Shown: positions 1,212 to 24,565 of the stretch, piece after piece
Layout of the letters: each line of letters begins with the position of its first letter
How positions within the stretch are numbered: the stretch's first letter is position 1
NCBI GenBank assembly: GCA_026706635.1
Contig: JAPOYJ010000026.1
Coordinates: 1 to 41,361 of the forward strand
Reading direction: 5' to 3'
Length of the DNA: 41,361 nucleotides
Origin: Gemmatimonadota bacterium
Lineage (GTDB): Bacteria; Gemmatimonadota; Gemmatimonadetes; Longimicrobiales; Gaopeijiaceae
The notes under the pieces: model-generated
The model's database searches: none
What the model was told of the DNA's origin: nothing
The model's input: the letters and a program-made list of their open reading frames with translations, nothing else
Translations under genes and position numbers: made by a program

Positions 1212-3106
1212 AGGATCGATTTCGCGGCCCACGCGCCCAGATAGGCAAGCGCCAGCATGTAGGCGAACTGAAGCGACGGCCATCGCCACCCGCCCGTCTC
1301 GCGCCGCATCACCGCCACGGTGGACATGCACTGCAGGGCGAAGGCGAAGAATACGAGTAGCGCCACCGCCGAGCCAAGGTCCATATCCCGCTGGAGCGCG
1401 GCGCGGAGCTCCAGGGTGGTGTCGTCCTCGGCCTCCACTCCGTAGATCGTCCCGAGGGTGCCCACGATGACCTCGCGAGCGGCGAGCGAGGTCACCAGCC
1501 CGATGCCGATGCGCCAGTCGAAGCCGAGGGGCTCGATCGCGGGTTCGATCAGCTGGCCCATCCGACCCAGGGCGCTCTCCTCGATCGGGGGCGACCCGCC
1601 GTCGGGTGTGCGCGGAAGTTGCGTCAGCACCCAAAGCACCACCGTGACCGCCAGGATGATCTTGCCGGCCCGCCTGAGGAAGACCTTGGCGCGGTCAAGC
1701 AGGCGGGTTGCCACCGAGCGGGCGCTCGGCATCCGGTACGGCGGCATCTCCATCACGAAGGGGAGCGGACGCCCTCTCAGAAGAGTCCGCTTGAGCAGCG
1801 CCGCCGTGCCGATGGCCGCCACCAGGCCCAGCGCGTAGAGCCCGATCAGCACCGCGGCCTGCCGGCCCAGGATGGGGCCGAGCACCGGGCCCGCCGGGAC
1901 GAAGGCCGCGATGAGGAGGGCATAGACCGGAAGCCGCGCCGAGCACGTCATGAAGGGCGCTACGAAGATGGTGGTGAGGCGGTCGCGCTCGTCCTCGACT
2001 GCGCGCGCCGACATGATCGCGGGGATCGCGCATGCGTACGCGGAGAGGAGCGGAAGAAACGACCGACCCTCCAGACCCACCCGGTGCATCAGTCGGTCGG
2101 CGACGACGGCCGCGCGCGCCATGTACCCCGAATCCTCCATCAGCGCGATGAAGAAGAAGAGAATCAGGATCTGGGGAAGAAAGACGATGACGGACCCCAC
2201 ACCCGCCCACACCCCTTCGACAAGGAGCGAGCGCAGCCACCCGTCCGGCATTATCCCGTGCAGGTACCTGCCGGATATGCCGATCATCGCCTCCGTGGCG
2301 TCCATGAGCGGCACCGCCCACGCGAATATCGTCTGGAATACGAGCGCCACGACGCCCAGAAAAACCACCGGACCCCAGATGCGGTGCAGCGCAAGAGCGT
2401 CGAGCCGCTTGGTGACGACCGACTCCCGAGGCGCACGGTAGCCGGCCGTGCGACCCAGCTGCCGAGCCCGTTCGCGTCTGGCCGAGAAGAGATCTACGAC
2501 CGGCAGGGGCCGCGTCGGCGCATGGGGAGGCGATTGCGCGACATGGCTATCCGCAACCGCCACCGCCGGGCAGGCGCGCGCCTCCTCTCCCCCGGTCAGC
2601 AGGGCCTCGAGGAAGCTGTGGACAGAGCCCAGCGTCCCCGGGTCGCGGGCGTCGACCAGCGCCACCTCGACCCCGAGCTCGCGCGAGAGCTCGGCGGCTT
2701 CGACGGTCCCGTCGCGCTGCCCGAGCTCGTCCGCCATGGCGAGCACGACCAGGGTGGGAGTCCCCAGCCCCAGAAACGACTCCGCCACCATCAGATGCGA
2801 GCGCAGCCGGGTCGAGTCGAGCAGGATCACCAAACCGTCCGGACGCAGTCCGCCCTCCGTCTCCCCGAGGAGGGCTCGCCGGGTGACCAGCTGGTCGAGG
2901 CTCCTGGGCGACAGACCATGCACGCCCGGCAGGTCGACGAGCTCCACGCGCCCAGAGGCGAGCCGCACCACCCCGGACCTGCGCTCGACGGTGACGCCGG
3001 GGTAGTTGGCTACCCGCTGGCGCAGACCGGTCAGCGAGTTGAAGAGGGTGGACTTGCCGGAGTTGGGAGGTCCGGCCAGCAACACCACGGGGCGCGAGTC
3101 AGCCAA
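1208..3106 (-). CDS. feoB: ferrous iron transporter FeoB
   Basis: 632 aa, shorter than the roughly 770 aa Escherichia coli protein. N-terminal G domain: G1 GPPNSGKST at residues 12-20, G2 around GVTVE, G3 DLPG at 58-61. The usual G4 NMxD reads AMAD at 123-126, so the guanine-specifying Asn is replaced. The membrane part carries the two Gate signatures, ACAIPAIMSAR and MTCSARLPVYALL, with the conserved cysteines, followed by several transmembrane helices. The protein imports Fe(II) across the inner membrane. The start is TTG at 3106, 9 bp after the CTAG end of repeat E2, and no Shine-Dalgarno site is visible, so the repeat has probably replaced the native leader. The stop overlaps the next gene as GTGA. 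Confidence 0.95.
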   Translation of the reverse strand: MADSRPVVLLAGPPNSGKSTLFNSLTGLRQRVANYPGVTVERRSGVVRLASGRVELVDLPGVHGLSPRSLDQLVTRRALLGETEGGLRPDGLVILLDSTRLRSHLMVAESFLGLGTPTLVVLAMADELGQRDGTVEAAELSRELGVEVALVDARDPGTLGSVHSFLEALLTGGEEARACPAVAVADSHVAQSPPHAPTRPLPVVDLFSARRERARQLGRTAGYRAPRESVVTKRLDALALHRIWGPVVFLGVVALVFQTIFAWAVPLMDATEAMIGISGRYLHGIMPDGWLRSLLVEGVWAGVGSVIVFLPQILILFFFIALMEDSGYMARAAVVADRLMHRVGLEGRSFLPLLSAYACAIPAIMSARAVEDERDRLTTIFVAPFMTCSARLPVYALLIAAFVPAGPVLGPILGRQAAVLIGLYALGLVAAIGTAALLKRTLLRGRPLPFVMEMPPYRMPSARSVATRLLDRAKVFLRRAGKIILAVTVVLWVLTQLPRTPDGGSPPIEESALGRMGQLIEPAIEPLGFDWRIGIGLVTSLAAREVIVGTLGTIYGVEAEDDTTLELRAALQRDMDLGSAVALLVFFAFALQCMSTVAVMRRETGGWRWPSLQFAYMLALAYLGAWAAKSIL

Positions 3107-3115
3107 GGTTGCTGG

Positions 3116-3358
3116 CTAGCGGCCCGTGGACAAACCTCCCACGGCATTCGAGCGGCGCTGCATCCCCGCTGGACCGCTTCGTTCGCTTATCCATTATGTA
3201 ACGTATGCCTTACATTATGTAATCCACGATTTACAGTCACCCTGCCCGGCGCCAGCTCTGCGTTGCTCCTCGGGCCGGTAGCGCTGCTGCCAGCGCTTGC
3301 GGACCGCCAGCGCTTCGCCGGTCTCGGTGCCCGCACGAGACTATCCACGGACTGCTGA
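3116..3358 (-). repeat. CTAG-end repeat, copy E2 (near full length)
   Basis: Reverse orientation, about 243 bp, from CTAG at 3116-3119 (CTAGCGGCCCGTGGACAA) to CTGA at 3355-3358. It contains the AT core around 3188-3234 with two palindromes, and the stem-loop GGTAGC/GCTGCC at 3277-3291. It separates feoA from feoB and leaves only 9 bp before the feoB start. Confidence 0.85.
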
Positions 3359-3757: not shown

Positions 3758-3994
3758 GGACTCGGGCGGGCGGAGACACCCTGCCTCGGCAGGAGGGCCA
3801 TCGCCGTGCGCGATGGAGCAACGTTACCCTGGTGATGCGAAAATGGGAAGGTCCGCCCCACCCACCCGATCTGCAAGACCGCGCGAATTCGCCTCGCATC
3901 GGAGGGGTTGCCCGGTCTAGCAGCCCATGGAGAACCTCGCGCGAGCGTCCGACGCGCACCGCTTCCAGAGCCCGGAAGGGGCGCGGCGACCTGT

Positions 3995-5183: not shown

Positions 5184-7634
<2,451 letters not shown>

Positions 7635-7641
7635 CGGGGCC

Positions 7642-10600
7642 GTGGCGGCCAACGGTGCCGGCTACGGAGCGTGCGCGCTGGTCGCCGAGCTTGATCGGAT
7701 CGCGCGCGGGGAGGGCTACTCGCGCAAGGTGCTCGTGGCGCGCAATCCGGGCGAGGGCCGCGAGCTGCTGGCGCAGGTGGCGCTCCGGGGCACTTCCTGG
7801 GCGGGCTTCGAGCTGCGCACCCTCCAGGCGTTGGCGGCCGAGATCGTCCAGCTCGGCGGCCACCTGGGTGGGCGCACGGTAGCCGACGCCTTCGAGATAC
7901 AGGCCCTGGTCGAGCAGGCCATCGACGAGGCGCTCGCCGACGGCCACCTCCTGCCCTATCCGGAGCTGGTCGAGCGGGTTGGGCTGCGCGAGGCCGTACG
8001 GCGCTCGGTGGCGGCCCTGCGGATGGGGGGGGTTCGGGCCGCCGCGCTCGCCGGGCGGGCGGCATCGCCGACGATAGCGGGCACGGTGCTCGGCCGCTAC
8101 GAGGAGCTCCTGGCGTGGGAGGGAGTGGCGGACGGCGCCTCGGTGCTGAAGGCGGCTGCGGCGGCCGTGCGACGGGATGCAGCGTCGCTGCCGCGCTCCC
8201 GGCGAATCCTCCTCCTCCCCGGTATCCACAACCGGGGTCTGCCCGGGAGCTTCGCACAGAGCCTTCTCGACCGCGGCGCTACGCTCCTCGCTGCCGACCC
8301 GGTAGAGGGGCTGCCGGCACCGGAGGGCATCCACTGGCGGGGCGCCGGAGCGAAGGCCGCGGGCAGCTGGCTGCACCGACCGGATGCATACCGCGGCACC
8401 ACCGGGCCGATCGAGCTCTTCGCGGCCAGCTCCGTGGCCGACGAGCTCCGCGGCGTGCTGCGCCGGGCGACGGCGAAGGGAAGGCGCTGGGACGAGGTGG
8501 AGATCGTCGCCACCGATCCGGTCGTCTACGCTTCGGCGCTTCACGCCGTCGCCGAAGCGATGGGTATTCCCGTCACGTACGCAACGGGCCTCGCGGTGGA
8601 GCGCACCCGCCCCGGTCGCGTGGCGGCGGCCTACTTCCGCTGGGTCGAGAGCGACTTTCAGGAGGCGCGCATCCGTGCGCTGATCGAGGCGAACGACATC
8701 CGGCCGCCGCCGCCCGGCAACGACATCTCCGGAGCCCGGCTGGCGCGCTCGCTGCGACGGCTCCGCATCGGGTGGGGCCGGGACAGGTACCTCGGTCGCA
8801 TCGAGCATGCCCTCACGCAGCTCTCCGCGATGCGGCCCCGGAGCGACGAGAGCGAGGAGGAGCTCGCGGGGCGAAAGGAGCGCCGCCGCGAAGAGCTCTG
8901 CGCGCTCAGGTCTCTGCTCGCCCCCGTTCTGGCCGCCACGCCGGCCGTCGAGGGGCGCACGTCGGCGGCCAAGGTGGCGATCGGCGTCGGGGCGCTGCTT
9001 CGGCACCTCGCGCCCGGCACGGACACCGACGATACCGCCAGGGGGCGGCTCGCCCGCCATCTCGAACGCATCGAGGCGACGCTGCACAGAGTCACCGACT
9101 ACGCGGCGGCTGCCGCGTCCGTCCAGGGCTTCCTCCGGTTCTCCGTCCCGGCGCCTCGCGACGAGGGCGTGGCACCTTGGGGATCCGCGCCGGGACACCT
9201 CTACCTGACGGATGTGGATCACGGCGGGGCCACGGGGCGGCCCTACACCGCGATCGTCGGGATGGACGCGGGGCAGCTTCCCGGCCCGTCCCGGGAGGAT
9301 CCTCTACTGCCAGACGGCGACCGGCGCCGACTCGGCGACCGAGCGCTCCCGCTCGCCACTCAGGGCGCCGCCGAGCGTCGGTTCCGATTCGCCCAACTCG
9401 TGGCCCGGCTGCGGGGCGAGCTCTCGATGAGCTACACGCGCTGGGATCCGTCCCAGGCCCGCCACCTCGCGCCCGCCCCCGAGATGCTCCAGGCGCTGCG
9501 GCTGCGCGAGGGGAACCCGTCGCTCAGCTTCGAGGAGCTGCAACGGAGGCTGGGGGTGAGCGAGTCGAGGCTGCCCCGCGCCGAGACCGCAGCCGATCTG
9601 GACGAGGCAGACGTCTGGCTGCGCCTGCTCGCCGCTCCGGATGGAACGATGCTGGACGGTGGCAGGGCCGTCGCTCGCGCCCACCCGCACCTCGCTCGGG
9701 GCCGCGCGGCGCACGAGGCGCGACAACGCGACGTGGCGAGCGTTCACACTGGCTTTCTGGCACCGCCCACACCCGGCGAGTCCTTCCGCGATTTCAGCGA
9801 GTGGACCTTCTCGGCAACATCTCTCGGCAATCTGGGCACCTGCCCGAGACGCTTCCTACTCGGCAGCGTGCTGGACGCGTCTCCTCCCGACGACCCGGTG
9901 TTCGACCCCGACCGCTGGCTGAACGCACTCCAGCGAGGGACGCTCCTGCACGAAGTCTACGAGCGCACTCTCACTGTCGCCCGAGAGCGCGGCGTTGAGA
10001 TCGGCGACGACGCCTTCCTGGCGCTCGCGCTCGCCCGGGTCGACCGCGCCGTTGCGAAGGCGATTCGCCGTGTGCCGACTCCGAGCGCTCTGGTGCGCGA
10101 GCTGGAGATCGAGGCGCTTCGCGACGACGTGCGCTCCTTCGTCGAGATGGTGCGGAGCAGGCCCCCAGCCTGGACCCGCCTCGAGATGTCGTTCGGCGGA
10201 CCCGAGGATCCCCTGACGATCGACGTGGCGGGGACTCCCGCGAGGGTGCGGGGAATTATCGACCGGATCGACGAGGGCGAAGACGGCGAAGTGCGGGTCG
10301 TCGACTACAAGACGGGGCGGAGCTCCGGATACGACGCAGCGGGCGCACCGTTCGACGGGGGGCGGCGGTTCCAGGGCTACCTCTACGTCGAGGCGGTCCG
10401 CAGGGAGCTCGGTCGGCGCGCCGACGCGATGGAGTATCACTTCCCGACGCGCCGGGGCGAGAACCACGTGGAATCAATCGCCGCGCATCGGCTGCACGGC
10501 GGCGCGACGGTAGTGGCTACGCTCCTCGAGGGGGCCCGGAGGGGGCGCTTTCCCGCCACGGATACCCCGGCGGACTGCCGCTACTGCGACTTCGGAGTCG

Positions 10601-10722
10601 TCTGCGGCGTCCGGACCGATCGGTGGGGCAAGGCGTCGTGCCGCCACGCCGACTGGACGAAGCGCAACCTCGGGTCGCTTCCCGAGCTGGATTCGCTCCG
10701 CCGCGTGCGCGACGAACCGTGA
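7642..10722 (+). CDS. addB: AddB-like PD-(D/E)XK nuclease with iron-sulfur cluster
   Basis: 1026 aa from GTG at 7642, only 8 bp past the end of repeat E3. The long N-terminal region resembles the degenerate helicase folds of AddB-type subunits. The C-terminal nuclease has GTLLHEVYERTL, RGIIDRID and VVDYKTG (Asp888, Lys890), the core of the PD-(D/E)XK fold. Cysteines in CPRRFLL (Cys734) and CRYCDFGVVC (979, 982, 988) fit the 4Fe-4S staple that brackets AddB nuclease domains. With AddA it would process double-strand breaks for RecA loading. Its stop TGA at 10720-10722 lies inside an ancestral GTGA that once opened addA. Specialised names within this family vary; the nuclease assignment is firm. 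Confidence 0.85.
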   Translation: MAANGAGYGACALVAELDRIARGEGYSRKVLVARNPGEGRELLAQVALRGTSWAGFELRTLQALAAEIVQLGGHLGGRTVADAFEIQALVEQAIDEALADGHLLPYPELVERVGLREAVRRSVAALRMGGVRAAALAGRAASPTIAGTVLGRYEELLAWEGVADGASVLKAAAAAVRRDAASLPRSRRILLLPGIHNRGLPGSFAQSLLDRGATLLAADPVEGLPAPEGIHWRGAGAKAAGSWLHRPDAYRGTTGPIELFAASSVADELRGVLRRATAKGRRWDEVEIVATDPVVYASALHAVAEAMGIPVTYATGLAVERTRPGRVAAAYFRWVESDFQEARIRALIEANDIRPPPPGNDISGARLARSLRRLRIGWGRDRYLGRIEHALTQLSAMRPRSDESEEELAGRKERRREELCALRSLLAPVLAATPAVEGRTSAAKVAIGVGALLRHLAPGTDTDDTARGRLARHLERIEATLHRVTDYAAAAASVQGFLRFSVPAPRDEGVAPWGSAPGHLYLTDVDHGGATGRPYTAIVGMDAGQLPGPSREDPLLPDGDRRRLGDRALPLATQGAAERRFRFAQLVARLRGELSMSYTRWDPSQARHLAPAPEMLQALRLREGNPSLSFEELQRRLGVSESRLPRAETAADLDEADVWLRLLAAPDGTMLDGGRAVARAHPHLARGRAAHEARQRDVASVHTGFLAPPTPGESFRDFSEWTFSATSLGNLGTCPRRFLLGSVLDASPPDDPVFDPDRWLNALQRGTLLHEVYERTLTVARERGVEIGDDAFLALALARVDRAVAKAIRRVPTPSALVRELEIEALRDDVRSFVEMVRSRPPAWTRLEMSFGGPEDPLTIDVAGTPARVRGIIDRIDEGEDGEVRVVDYKTGRSSGYDAAGAPFDGGRRFQGYLYVEAVRRELGRRADAMEYHFPTRRGENHVESIAAHRLHGGATVVATLLEGARRGRFPATDTPADCRYCDFGVVCGVRTDRWGKASCRHADWTKRNLGSLPELDSLRRVRDEP

Positions 10723-10727
10723 GCGGC

Positions 10728-10983
10728 CTGGCAGTCCGTGGATAACCTCGCGCGAGCACCGAGAGCGGCGAAGCGCCCCGCTGGCAAGGCGCGACGAAGG
10801 GCCAATAGCCGCAGCGCTATTGGTTCGAGGAGCAACGCAGAGCGAAGCCCCGGGTACGGGCATTGTAAACCATAGACTACACATTGTAAAGCATAGATGA
10901 CATTATGGATAAGCGAGCGAAGCGGCCCAGCGGAGATGCAGCGCTGCTCGAATGCCGTGGGAGGCTTGTCCACGGGCTGCTAG
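10728..10983 (+). repeat. CTAG-end repeat, copy E4 (full length) splitting addB/addA
   Basis: About 256 bp, from CTGG (10728) to CTAG (10980-10983), with left end CTGGCAGTCCGTGGATAA and right end TTGTCCACGGGCTGCTAG. It contains the hairpin CCAATAGC-CGCAGC-GCTATTGG at 10802-10823 and the AT core at about 10864-10902. An ATG at 10905 inside it opens a frame that runs out of the right end into addA. Removing the repeat restores GTG AGC GGC CTG GCC GAC, an addA start overlapping the addB stop. Confidence 0.9.
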
Positions 10984-13900
10984 CCGACGAGGCGGCCCGG
11001 CGGAGCATCTGCGAGGATCTGGACGATAACCTCCTGGTGGAGGCGGGAGCGGGCTCCGGAAAGACGACCGAACTCGTCAACCGGATGGTCGCGCTCGTGC
11101 GGACCGGAGCGACCCAGGTCGAGGAAATCGCCGCGGTCACCTTTACGCGCAAGGCGGCGGCCGAACTCCGCGAACGCTTTCAGATCGCCCTCGAGAAGTC
11201 CCTCAGCGATCTCCGCGACCTCCCGGCCGAGACGGCCGCGAGAGAGCGACTGGGAGCGGCAATCCAAGGCGTGGACGCGGCGTTTCTGGGCACCATCCAC
11301 GCCTTCTGCGCCCGGCTACTCCGGGAGCGGCCGCTAGGGGCGGGTCTCGACCCGGGATTCCGCGAGATCGAGGAGGCAGAGGCGGAAGCGATGCGTCGGC
11401 GATTCTGGGTCGACTTCCAGGAGCGAATGGCGACCGACGGGGATGAGCGCCTGAGCGACCTCGCAAGGCTCGGGGTTCCGCTCGAACGGCTCGAGGCGGC
11501 ATTCGCGACGGTGGAGGAAAACCCGGATGTTGACTTCGGCTTCGCGGCGGTCCCCGCCACGCCTCCGGAGGCGATCGACCTCGTACGCACCCACCTGGAC
11601 GAGCTCCTCGACCGGGCTGCGGCGCTCCTGCCCGACCGCACTCCCCAGAAGGGCTGGGACCCATTCGCGACGAGGATGCGGACTCTTCTCTACCGGCGCC
11701 GCGCCTTCGATTGGAGCGACGATCGCGTCCTTTTCGACGCGTTGACGACAATTCACCGCAAGAGGTGCGCGCTAGTGCAAAACCGGTGGAGCGACACGGC
11801 GAGCGGCAAGCAGCGGGCCAAGACGCTCTGCCGGGAGGTCGAGGAGTTCGCAGCTCCGGGAGGCGCCGCCGACCTCCTGCTGGCCCGGGCGTGGGCGCAC
11901 CGCTATCCGGTTGCGATGGGAATCGCGAGGGACGCGGCGCGCGCCTTCGCCGAAGAGCGCAGGCGACTCGGGCTCGTCAGCTACCAGGACCTGCTGGTGC
12001 TAACGAGGGAACTGCTCGCCAGCGAGCCGGATGGCCGCCGCGAGCTGGCGGCAAGATTCCCGCGCATACTCGTCGACGAGTTCCAGGACACCGACCCCCT
12101 GCAGGCCGAAATTCTGCTGCTCCTGGCGAGCGACCCCGAGACGGGCGACGACTGGCGCAGGGTGGAGCCGCGACCGGGCGCACTATTCGTCGTCGGCGAC
12201 CCGAAGCAGAGCATCTACCGCTTTCGACGCGCCGACATCGCTCTCTACCAGGTCGTCAAGCGCCGTTTCGAGCACTTCGGCAAGGTGCTCGGCCTCGAGA
12301 CGAACTTCCGCTCGCTCCCCGCAATCGGAGAGATCGTGCAGGGCGCGTTCGATCGCCACGACCGTTTCGGCGCCAGCGACACGGACCGGCAGGCGGCCTT
12401 TGCGCCGCTCGTGCCAGCGCGCACCGATGAGGGGCCTGGGCTGGTGGCGGCGTACCGGATCGCCGGCGGCAACCACCGGGCAATGGCGCGCGACGAGGCG
12501 AAGCGGATCGCGACGGAGATCTCGGCGCGGGTGAAGGCGGGCGAGCGGAAGGCGGGCGACTTCATGGTCCTCACCCGCACGAGGCACCACCTGCAGAGCT
12601 ACGTACGCGCACTCGAGCGCCGGGGCGTGCCCACCGATGTCTCGGGCGCGGGAGTCGATTTCGACGAGGAGCTGGCGGCCTTCCTGCTCTTGCTGAGATG
12701 CCTGGAGGACCCCACCCACCGAACGCGCGTTGTCGGCGTGCTAACGGGACCGCTCTTCGGGGTCACGCTGGAAGAGCTGGTCGCCTACCGGGACGCGGGC
12801 GGCTTCGAGATAAACCGCCGGGCCCGCGGCGACGGCGAGGTGGCCGGAGCGGTCGACACCCTGCACAGGTGGTGGAAGAGGGCGATGAGGGAACCTGCCG
12901 ACGTTACCGTGGAGCGTCTGGTCGCCGAGACGGCTCTCTTTCCGCTCGCCGCAGCCGAGGAGCTCGGCCAGCTCCGCGCAGGTGCGGTCGCCTACCTCCT
13001 CGACGCCGTGAGGGTGTGCGTTCTGGAGGGCGACGGCTCCCTTGCCGGCGCAGCCGACGCGATCGAGGATGCGCTGAGGTGGCAAGACGCCGAGGCGCCG
13101 CTCGTGCCGGGTCGCGGCAACTGCGTGAGGGTCATGAACCTGCACCGCGCCAAGGGGCTGGAGGCACCGGTGGTCTTTCTGGCGGCACCTTTCGGCGAGA
13201 CGAACCGACCGCCGCGGATGCGCGTCGCGCGCGACGAGAGCGGAGAGGCCAGGGGCAGTACCGCGATCCTCGACCGGGCGGATCCGGCCAAGTGGTTTGC
13301 ACGGCAGCGGAGGGTGATCGCGCAACCCCTGGACTGGGAGCGGGAGCTGAAGGAGGAGCGCGACTTCGAAGCCGCCGAGAGCGTGCGCCTGCTCTACGTC
13401 GCCGCCACCCGCGCAAAGGACGAGCTCTGGATCGCACGGTCGGGACCAAGGGGCGGCTCGCCCTGGCAGGCGCTCGAGGAGTGGGTCGTGAACGCTGCGA
13501 AAAGGGTGCCCGGAAAGGCCGGAAGTGTCAGGCTCGTGGAGCTTAGCTCGAAGGAGGCGCCCCCCCCTCCCGAGCTGAGTCCCGATGTCGACCTGGCACC
13601 TCGGCTGGGCACCATGCGGAGGGCGGCCGAACGCAGCCGCATTGCGACGTACCGACGAAACTCGGTGACGGAGAGCACCAAGGGCGGCGGTGCCGGCGGT
13701 GACCGGGAGCGGATGCGGCGGATCCGCGTGCATACCTTCGCGCCGCCGACCGAACGGCCCGCGAGCGGTGGGCGCGAATGGGGCAGCGTGGTGCACCAGA
13801 CGCTGGCGATCGCGGCCGAGGGAGTGCGCGGCGAGTCGCTCGACCGGCTAGCCCGCGATCTCCTCGCTGGCCGTGGGCGCATCGCGCGCGACGGAGGCGA

Positions 13901-14264
13901 GCCGCCGGATATAGCTGCCCTCCTCTCGCTTGTAGCCTCGGTACGCGCCTCGCCGATCTGGAAGCGCGCGATGGCCAGCGACGAGCACCTCGTCGAGTTG
14001 CCCTTCTCGCTTGCTAAGGCGGCGAGCGGCGAGCACCGCGAAGTCCTCGAGGGGGTGATCGACCTGGTCTTCCGCGAGGGCGACCGCTGGTGTGTGGTCG
14101 ACTACAAGGCGGACCGCGGCGACGATCCCGACTTCGCCTCCAGGGTCGAGGAGTACCGGGCCCAGGTAGACCTCTACGCCCGCTGCTGGGAGGAGCTGAC
14201 CGGCGCCGAGGTCGGGGAACGGGTGCTACTCTTCGTGGCCCAGGGTCGAGCGGAGTCGTGGTGA
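10905..14264 (+). CDS. addA: AddA-like UvrD/RecB-family helicase-nuclease, N-terminus supplied by repeat E4
   Basis: 1119 aa from ATG 10905. SF1A helicase motifs in order: Walker A AGAGSGKT at residues 47-54, FTRKAAAELRERF, GTIHAFCARLL, ILVDEFQDTD near 390, VVGDPKQSIYRFRRAD, LETNFRS, VMNLHRAKGLEAPVVF and LLYVAATRAKDEL. The C-terminal RecB-type nuclease has GVIDLVF and VVDYKADR near 1063, then QVDLYAR. This is the helicase partner of AddB. The first 27 codons, starting MDKRAKRPSG, are repeat-derived; the native start was probably GTG at 10719, and reading from it now stops after 8 codons. Whether the ATG or another site is used in the cell is unknown. Confidence 0.9.
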   Translation: MDKRAKRPSGDAALLECRGRLVHGLLADEAARRSICEDLDDNLLVEAGAGSGKTTELVNRMVALVRTGATQVEEIAAVTFTRKAAAELRERFQIALEKSLSDLRDLPAETAARERLGAAIQGVDAAFLGTIHAFCARLLRERPLGAGLDPGFREIEEAEAEAMRRRFWVDFQERMATDGDERLSDLARLGVPLERLEAAFATVEENPDVDFGFAAVPATPPEAIDLVRTHLDELLDRAAALLPDRTPQKGWDPFATRMRTLLYRRRAFDWSDDRVLFDALTTIHRKRCALVQNRWSDTASGKQRAKTLCREVEEFAAPGGAADLLLARAWAHRYPVAMGIARDAARAFAEERRRLGLVSYQDLLVLTRELLASEPDGRRELAARFPRILVDEFQDTDPLQAEILLLLASDPETGDDWRRVEPRPGALFVVGDPKQSIYRFRRADIALYQVVKRRFEHFGKVLGLETNFRSLPAIGEIVQGAFDRHDRFGASDTDRQAAFAPLVPARTDEGPGLVAAYRIAGGNHRAMARDEAKRIATEISARVKAGERKAGDFMVLTRTRHHLQSYVRALERRGVPTDVSGAGVDFDEELAAFLLLLRCLEDPTHRTRVVGVLTGPLFGVTLEELVAYRDAGGFEINRRARGDGEVAGAVDTLHRWWKRAMREPADVTVERLVAETALFPLAAAEELGQLRAGAVAYLLDAVRVCVLEGDGSLAGAADAIEDALRWQDAEAPLVPGRGNCVRVMNLHRAKGLEAPVVFLAAPFGETNRPPRMRVARDESGEARGSTAILDRADPAKWFARQRRVIAQPLDWERELKEERDFEAAESVRLLYVAATRAKDELWIARSGPRGGSPWQALEEWVVNAAKRVPGKAGSVRLVELSSKEAPPPPELSPDVDLAPRLGTMRRAAERSRIATYRRNSVTESTKGGGAGGDRERMRRIRVHTFAPPTERPASGGREWGSVVHQTLAIAAEGVRGESLDRLARDLLAGRGRIARDGGEPPDIAALLSLVASVRASPIWKRAMASDEHLVELPFSLAKAASGEHREVLEGVIDLVFREGDRWCVVDYKADRGDDPDFASRVEEYRAQVDLYARCWEELTGAEVGERVLLFVAQGRAESW

Positions 14265-23326: not shown

Positions 23327-24565
23327 ATGACTTGGCAGATGGGAAGGGCGGCTACAGGGATCGGGCTAGCAGCCCGTGGACAAACCTCCCACGGCATTCG
23401 AGCAGCGCCGCATCCCCGCTGGACCGCTTCGTCGCGCCTTGCCAGCGGGGCGCTTCGCCGGTCTCGGTGCTCGCGCGAGATCATCCACGGACTGCTAGCG
23501 GTGGCGCTTCTGCTGCCGCCACTCGCTGGCGTCGCGCAGGAAGAGACCCGGGGCCCGTGGGGTGCCTACCTGGGGTGCTGGAGTTCGCTGGCGGCGGGCG
23601 AGGAGGAGGGCAACCTCTGCTTCGTGGCCGACGGGGCGGACGTCGAGATGCTGACGGTCGTCGATGGGGCTGTCCTGCACCGCGAGCCGTTCATCGCCGA
23701 CGGGGTGAGGCGCGAGATCGCCCGAAGCGGCTGCCGAGGCACCGAATCGAACCTCTTTTCGGACGACGGAAGGCGCCTCTACACCAGCTCCGAGACCGCG
23801 TGCGCGGGCGAGCCGCTCCGCCGGAGCACGGGGGTCATCTCGATGATCGGCACCGACGAGTGGATAGACGTGAGGGCGATCGAGGCGAACGGTGTCGCCA
23901 CCCCCTGGTCGCGCCGCTACGAGCGCACCGGCTACGGACCACTGGTCGAGGCAGGGTTGGTGGCAGAGGAAACGGCCCTGCTTTTCGGCCCCGGGGTTGC
24001 TGTCCCCCGGGTGCGCGGCGTCACCGTGGACGAGATCCTCGACGCCGTGGGCAACGTGGACGCCGTGGCCGTGCAGGGCTGGCTCGCCGAAGCGGAGGAG
24101 CGGGTTGCGGATCTGGACGCGGAGGGTCTCGTGCGCCTGGAGGAGGCGGGCGTCCCTGGTGCTGTGATTGACATCGCCGTGGCAGTCACCTTCCCGGAGC
24201 ACTTCGCCCTGCGGGACGACCGGCGAGATCGCGGAGGCAGCCGTCACGGCTATTGGGGCGGGTGGCGTGCGCCCTACCACCGCTACTCCTCCTACTACGG
24301 CCCCTGGGGCTACCGGCGCTACGGTTACTGGGGCTACGGCGGATACTACACGCCGGTTGTCGTCACCGTGGCGCCGAACACCGATCGGGCGAAAGGCGGC
24401 CGGATCGTCGCGGGGAAGGGGTATCGCGCCCCCAGGGGCACGGCAGCCAGCAGTGGCGGCAAGCAGGTGCGCCGTGCGCCGACCAACGACAGCGGCTCGG
24501 GCTCCAAGTCCGGCTCCAGGCGAGGGAGCACGGGGCGCAAGGCCAAGCCACGCGGCGGAAAGTAG
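23327..24565 (+). CDS. exported hypothetical protein with repeat E7 inserted in its signal peptide
   Basis: 412 aa as it stands, ATG 23327 with GGGGG just upstream. Codons 14-56 are repeat E7. Removing its 129 bp joins MTWQMGRAATGIGLA to VALLLPPLAGVAQ, a normal signal peptide. The mature part begins EETRGPWGAYLGCW, has several Cys, a putative helical region DEILDAVGNVDAVAVQ, then a Tyr/Gly-rich stretch (YRRYGYWGYGGYY) and a Ser/Gly/Lys/Arg-rich basic tail. Function unknown. The fused N-terminus would probably not be an efficient signal, because 43 mostly polar and basic residues split the n-region from the hydrophobic core; a GTG at 23501 would leave too short a signal. Confidence 0.7.
   Translation: MTWQMGRAATGIGLAARGQTSHGIRAAPHPRWTASSRLASGALRRSRCSREIIHGLLAVALLLPPLAGVAQEETRGPWGAYLGCWSSLAAGEEEGNLCFVADGADVEMLTVVDGAVLHREPFIADGVRREIARSGCRGTESNLFSDDGRRLYTSSETACAGEPLRRSTGVISMIGTDEWIDVRAIEANGVATPWSRRYERTGYGPLVEAGLVAEETALLFGPGVAVPRVRGVTVDEILDAVGNVDAVAVQGWLAEAEERVADLDAEGLVRLEEAGVPGAVIDIAVAVTFPEHFALRDDRRDRGGSRHGYWGGWRAPYHRYSSYYGPWGYRRYGYWGYGGYYTPVVVTVAPNTDRAKGGRIVAGKGYRAPRGTAASSGGKQVRRAPTNDSGSGSKSGSRRGSTGRKAKPRGGK
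23366..23498 (-). repeat. CTAG-end repeat, short copy E7 inside a gene
   Basis: 133 bp bounded by CTAG at 23366-23369 and 23495-23498. Counting one CTAG as target duplication, the net insertion is 129 bp, exactly 43 codons with no stop. It lacks both the hairpin and the AT core; the deletion junction lies at a CGAAG shared by both sides in the long form. Reverse orientation. Confidence 0.9.

Follow-up and report, generated by a model that had tools for sequence, protein, structure and literature searches.

A short, mobile repeat has come to lie between addB and addA in the analyzed Gemmatimonadota genome. Read from the sequence and from the repeat-free junctions of congeners, this copy (herein referred to as E4) cut addA off from its former GTG start, which overlaps the addB stop codon and was translationally coupled to addB. 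An ATG at position 10905, inside E4, is the sole ordinary start predicted to be left for a complete AddA helicase domain. The replacement is recurrent, since at sequence level it affects at least four conserved genes of this genome: addA, rdgB, mobA, and nadD.

The window, i.e., the whole 41,361-nucleotide stretch of DNA that was analyzed, is one contig (C79) of a 2.81-Mb assembly of 86 contigs. The genome may belong with the marine and sponge group named Palauibacterales. The genes on its + strand follow in the order recF-dciA-gyrB-repeat-addB-E4-addA, the dciA label being taken from the initial annotation. The addB gene (7642–10722, +; stop codon TGA at 10720–10722) is an open reading frame for an AddB-type PD-(D/E)XK nuclease of 1026 aa, which matched the PDDEXK_1 profile (5e-30) and, weakly, AddB models. 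In its present form, addA (10905–14264, +) encodes 1119 aa with UvrD-helicase (3.4e-51), UvrD_C, and PDDEXK_1 domains. The pair has the composition of an AddAB helicase-nuclease, in which AddA combines a UvrD helicase with a PD-(D/E)XK nuclease domain and is encoded beside an AddB nuclease; the NCBIfam equivalog models for AddA and AddB also matched, but below their cut-offs. The adjacency is native, addB preceding addA in all congeners. A second repeat copy (7437–7609) was found at the gyrB stop codon (GTC TAG, inside a CTAG). This copy ends approximately 30 nt before the GTG start of addB, so that addB has repeats on both sides.

The repeat was found at the addB-addA junction in none of 22 congeneric genomes (0/22). 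A 4-base overlap of stop and start, NTGA with the NTG at −4, is present in 20 of these 22 genomes, including 9 with GTG, 3 with ATG, and 8 with TTG. In the window, the GTG at 10719–10721 shares bases with the TGA at 10720–10722 in the same way, forming GTGA. Sequence, translation, and congeners place the ancestral addA start at this GTG (10719–10745, +). With E4 removed and its flanks joined, the sequence reads GTG AGC GGC CTR GCC GAC GAG GCG (M S G L A D E A), in the AddA frame and at the position expected from the congeners. The reconstructed ancestral N-terminus, MSGLADEAARRSI, aligns with those of congeners, e.g., MSTRPLPDEDARNRI. The net insertion is 252 bp, or 84 codons, if the 4-bp CTRG is counted once in the 256-bp copy. 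Because of this length the frame is kept across E4; even so, the old GTG now opens an 8-codon dead end, VSGLAVRG followed by TAA. The restored GTGA overlap, the net length divisible by three, and the early TAA had all been described in the initial annotation and were confirmed here, as was its reading of the recF stop as GTGA; the uninterrupted junction that it expected in relatives is the one found in them.

A short-read assembler could in principle have placed a repeat at this junction, and several contigs of the assembly do begin within repeat copies. However, the join is clean at the CTRG and in frame, other genes show the same pattern, and a false join is made unlikely by the addB-addA adjacency shared with all congeners. 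An assembly artefact is therefore scarcely credible.

The donated ATG (10905–10907, +) lies 79 nt before the right end of E4. It is in the AddA frame, which stays open into native AddA, in agreement with the restart inside the repeat claimed earlier. The 27 repeat-encoded residues of that claim have to be corrected slightly: 26 whole codons belong to the repeat, together with one base of the 27th, and native AddA follows from the A of ADEAARRSI. Relative to the ancestral form, the N-terminus has gained a net of approximately 22 residues, and matches of congeners to the present AddA mostly begin at residues 24–28. Between the preceding stop codon and the Walker A motif, the only ATG, GTG, or TTG codons in the AddA frame are ATG 10905 and GTG 11037, the latter located two codons before Walker A. 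AddA might nevertheless start elsewhere, either at GTG 11037, which is in frame, or close to the right end of the repeat at a non-standard codon (CTG or CTC), as non-AUG starts occur in bacteria. This appears improbable: initiation at GTG 11037 would lose the sequence (PP)DQAARxRI...LLVEAG, which is conserved in congeners, so that making a whole helicase domain from a normal start means starting inside the repeat.

E4 (10728–10983, +) extends over 256 bp, from a CTGG at 10728 to a CTAG at 10983. A repeat search and comparison with other copies in the genome and the genus identified it as a full-length member of a MITE-like family bounded by terminal inverted repeats (TIRs). The left TIR, CTGGCAGTCCGTGGA (10728–10742, +), has a target-like CTGG at its end, and the right TIR, TCCACGGGCTGCTAG (10969–10983, +), a target-like CTAG; the TIR pair of the family is CTRGCAGTCCGTGGA / TCCACGGGCTGCTAG. 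Allowing 2 mismatches at most, a search of the genome recovered 512 occurrences of the TIR CTAGCAGYCCGTGGA, versus 49 of the reversed control, which exceeds chance. The mobility that had been ascribed to the repeat is supported. Another copy shows a 96% match to E4 along 257 bp. The family length is about 248–256 bp, many copies being shortened internally, and approximately 257 elements or fragments account for 2.3% of the 1.59 Mb sampled (57% of the genome). Within the genus, each of the 23 genomes contains the repeat, with the same TIRs and length, and a few genomes at a greater distance show it weakly. Among the congeneric genomes, the two of smallest size (2.8 and 3.3 Mb) had 468 and 383 first-look repeat candidates, versus 38–189 in the others, which suggests repeat growth alongside genome reduction. 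Additionally, three head-to-tail copies with 2-bp spacers were observed at G021:C1 206900–208200 (locus L236).

E4 folds end to end as one hairpin (−124.9 kcal/mol, z −6.9), and 18 of the 59 consensus pairs in the fold of the genus alignment have changes on both sides. Folding of the sequence and of the alignment also recovered an inner hairpin, GGGCCAATAGC-loop-GCTATTGGTTC (10799–10826, +), the arms of which covary across the genus, e.g., at columns 76/95 (GC:20, CG:10, UG:3). Such compensatory changes suggest that pairing, as RNA or as single-stranded DNA, matters to the element. A known structured RNA was rejected as a reading of the repeat, no Rfam family matching the window, any repeat copy included.

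Like MITEs, these repeats have TIRs, are short (<600 bp), fold into a long hairpin, and occur in many copies with internal-deletion derivatives and no transposase. Their ends are CTAG or TA on both sides in part of the copies, and unlike 2–4 bp ends in many others; the restored frames at addA, at nadD, and at position 23366 of the window are consistent with duplication of one CTRG. CTAG/TA targets are those of IS630-derived MITEs, and the presence of CTAG or TA at both ends in many copies is a likeness to these elements. A difference is that the one IS630-type (DDE_3) element of the genome, located at G000:C13 (about 89.6–90.8 kb), has other ends, TGTCGTGTCCC, with no TIR in common with the repeat; a mobilizer would be expected to end in GCAGTCCGTGGA. 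IS630 was rejected as the mobilizer for this reason, and IS5/IS4 because no DDE_Tnp_1 proteins were found in the genome. Thus, no transposase sharing the TIRs of the repeat was found among the two families searched in this genome, DDE_3 and DDE_Tnp_1. The IS630-type element (locus L160, about 9600–10830) directly adjoins a repeat TIR (AGCAGCCCGTGGACAAACC).

Most near-full copies in this genome have an ATG at the donated-start position (−79), and the frame that it opens in the right arm, MDKRAKRSSGDAAPLECRGRFVHGLL, contains no stop codon. An outward frame that has a start but no stop codon can be present at either end of the repeat, which accounts for the replacements at rdgB, mobA, and nadD. 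These three cases were checked against congener orthologues, the sampled sequence being 1.59 Mb (57%). The rdgB gene starts two codons before LLLATRS in 19/19 congeners; here, the repeat splits the native start codon and provides an ATG in frame. This repeat copy deviates from the majority at 11 of 76 positions and is still open in frame. For mobA, an ATG precedes the motif by six codons in 11 of the 16 congeners that could be read, e.g., ATG AGT CTG CTG GGT GCG, whereas here native GC GCG follows directly on the CTG CTA G of the repeat end. The −79 codon of this copy is ACG, and another in-frame ATG is located further up; the left flank has lost register by one base, so that the empty site is less exact than in the other three cases. 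The nadD gene was struck by the other (left) end of the repeat, with GTG at −32/−26. Its joined flanks read GTG GCG TCT AGC TCT CGC GTA GGG, which places the restored GTG 7 codons ahead of GVFGG; 10 of 21 congeners have their start at this distance too. The Pfam domains of rdgB, mobA, and nadD begin at or just past the repeat boundary.

Treating addA as a single case, as had been done before, is thus too narrow. About five more genes have probably lost their native start and are in frame with a repeat start: those for a beta-propeller lipoprotein (C13:62362), a PEMT-like methyltransferase (C13:87916), and an S9 peptidase (C52:30286), and two further ORFs (C8:36059 and C76:7424). The recF gene was rejected as a further case, the repeat fragment at 3917 being upstream of a plausible native GTG. 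In the gene at 23327–24565 (+), an internally deleted 133-bp copy (23366–23498) is located in frame within the signal peptide (+129 nt, 43 codons), and its flanks, when joined, give a clean signal-peptide-like sequence, MTWQMGRAATGIGLAVALLLPPLAGVAQ. A further copy (3106–3356) adjoins feoB. Its terminal TAG closes the feoB frame, which leaves TTG 3106 as the first start; the native start of feoB may thus be lost too.

An AT-rich segment (10857–10907, +), evident in the sequence and in the genus alignment, runs into the donated start of addA, and ATG 10905 sits in the AT-rich apical part of the E4 hairpin. No Shine-Dalgarno was found in the sequence before this ATG; SD-like motifs precede 42% of the unambiguous starts of this genome, versus a 7% background. 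The initial annotation overlooked a competing ATG at 10897, 8 nt upstream. Its out-of-frame ORF, MTLWISERSGPAEMQRCSNAVGGLSTGC (10897–10983, +), closes by translation at the terminal TAG of the repeat (10983). At 10899, 60 of 64 copies have T and 3 share G, and this minority T-to-G change creates the ATG. No private substitutions were found in E4, every base being common to other copies. The insertion must therefore be recent, and the intact ORF says little about function; a neutral clock, tried as a proof of selection on addA, was uninformative for the same reason. The earlier conclusion that the repeat rewired initiation without destroying the gene goes beyond this evidence, because an intact ORF would be expected even if expression had collapsed. 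AddA is not generally an essential gene.

These observations raise the possibility that addA is badly expressed or silent, a pseudogene in waiting whose ORF is intact only because the insertion is young. The loss of coupling, the start lacking a Shine-Dalgarno under a strong hairpin, and the rival ATG whose frame ends inside the repeat would all fit. Against this, the same arrangement occurs at four conserved genes, among them nadD, which is commonly essential, and the far more diverged rdgB copy is still open, but the cases were found by seeking open frames. For that reason, the absence of indels in open copies was set aside as a sign of selection. On balance, a silent addA is considered rather unlikely. 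Peptides such as RPSGDAALLECR or LVHGLLADEAAR would be the signature of a translated repeat frame.

The repeat could also be a selected expression module that brings a promoter or a translation start to downstream genes. In keeping with this, aligned full copies have an AT-rich segment ahead of the start, about half of the genus copies have ATG or GTG at −79, the hairpin covaries, and the right ends with an outward gene fall into frames of 19, 15, and 6, the TAG-closed frame being the least common. However, divergence of the repeat ORF by codon position is 0.076, 0.077, and 0.089 (30 right-arm copies). A conserved repeat-encoded protein was rejected because there is no codon-position bias, and without this signature start donation looks like a tolerated accident and not a selected function. 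The only good sigma-70-like match, TTTACA-17-TACAAT (10/12; 10862–10890), is located in the AT-rich part on the − strand and points towards addB; a forward promoter was rejected, no forward consensus match being found. Leaderless promoters were rejected as well, since TANNNT precedes 6.6% of the starts versus 2.6% (n=76), too small an enrichment. Right ends face convergent genes more often than outward ones (77 versus 40). Open frames are only weakly in excess, a pattern that purifying selection on the struck genes would leave. A selected module is thus very improbable.

We consider it reasonably likely that the arrangement arose by recent insertion and persists as tolerated damage. In this account, a non-autonomous, TIR-bounded, MITE-like repeat of about 250 bp, present in hundreds of copies, recently entered a CTRG site four codons into addA. 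The insertion separated the gene from its coupled GTG, from which only 8 codons can now be read before TAA, whereas the right arm of E4 is open in the AddA frame from the ATG 79 nt before its end. Translation of AddA from the addB-addA mRNA would now begin at 10905 and no longer depend on addB termination; it would lack a Shine-Dalgarno and start within the AU-rich loop of a long hairpin. The predicted product is AddA with a basic N-terminal extension of approximately 22 residues, and its output relative to AddB is probably reduced. Start donation would thereby persist without being a selected device, as insertions near gene starts may survive when a repeat end supplies a start in the right frame. 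Both nadD and rdgB, genes that a cell normally keeps, rest on starts similar to that donated to addA, which, like the position of ATG 10905 in the AT-rich apical part, speaks for a working start. The chances are about even that the repeat family as a whole is a recurrent translation-start donor in Gemmatimonadota, insertions into the first codons of housekeeping genes being survived through exchange of the native start for that of the repeat and giving unrelated host proteins a common repeat-derived N-terminus.

The affected genes form a natural experiment series on the bacterial tolerance of mobile DNA inserted at gene starts. They make testable how well uncoupled, SD-less initiation performs inside a hairpin-rich repeat, and whether operons can be colonized by repeats while the struck genes survive. 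For annotators, they are a warning that N-termini held in common in such genomes may be repeat-derived.

No paper on this Gemmatimonadota repeat family was found in the literature searched. The QMITE1/2 elements of Coxiella are similar in being short, TIR-bounded, multi-copy, hairpin-forming elements without a transposase, with copies overlapping gene ends; their insertions were described at 3' ends, and no gene of known function was reported to be affected at its 5' end (PMC5896051). Here, in contrast, conserved genes are struck at the start codon, and the source transposase was not found among the two families searched. Fusions of MITEs and of RPEs to genes are already known (PMC10969869). 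RPEs are selfish repeats of about 150 bp that encode a conserved peptide and are found in frame within ORFs of unrelated conserved genes in a host-associated bacterium (PMC10969869). Judged by that description, the Gemmatimonadota repeat resembles RPEs in its in-frame insertion into conserved genes (the starts of addA, rdgB, mobA, and nadD, and the signal peptide at 23366–23498), the 133-bp copy being of the RPE type; unlike RPEs, it lacks codon-position conservation, and its main effect is replacement of the start codon. N-terminal fusions to ORFs have also been described for ERIC and related enterobacterial repeat units, e.g., Yersinia YP_0349 (Delihas, 2007; PMC2759123). Such N-terminal repeat-ORF fusions occur in both systems, but here four conserved genes are set against orthologues that lack the repeat and have an identified native start. 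Repeat-gene fusions as such are therefore known, and what is new is start replacement as the recurrent, orthologue-checked effect of a repeat family.
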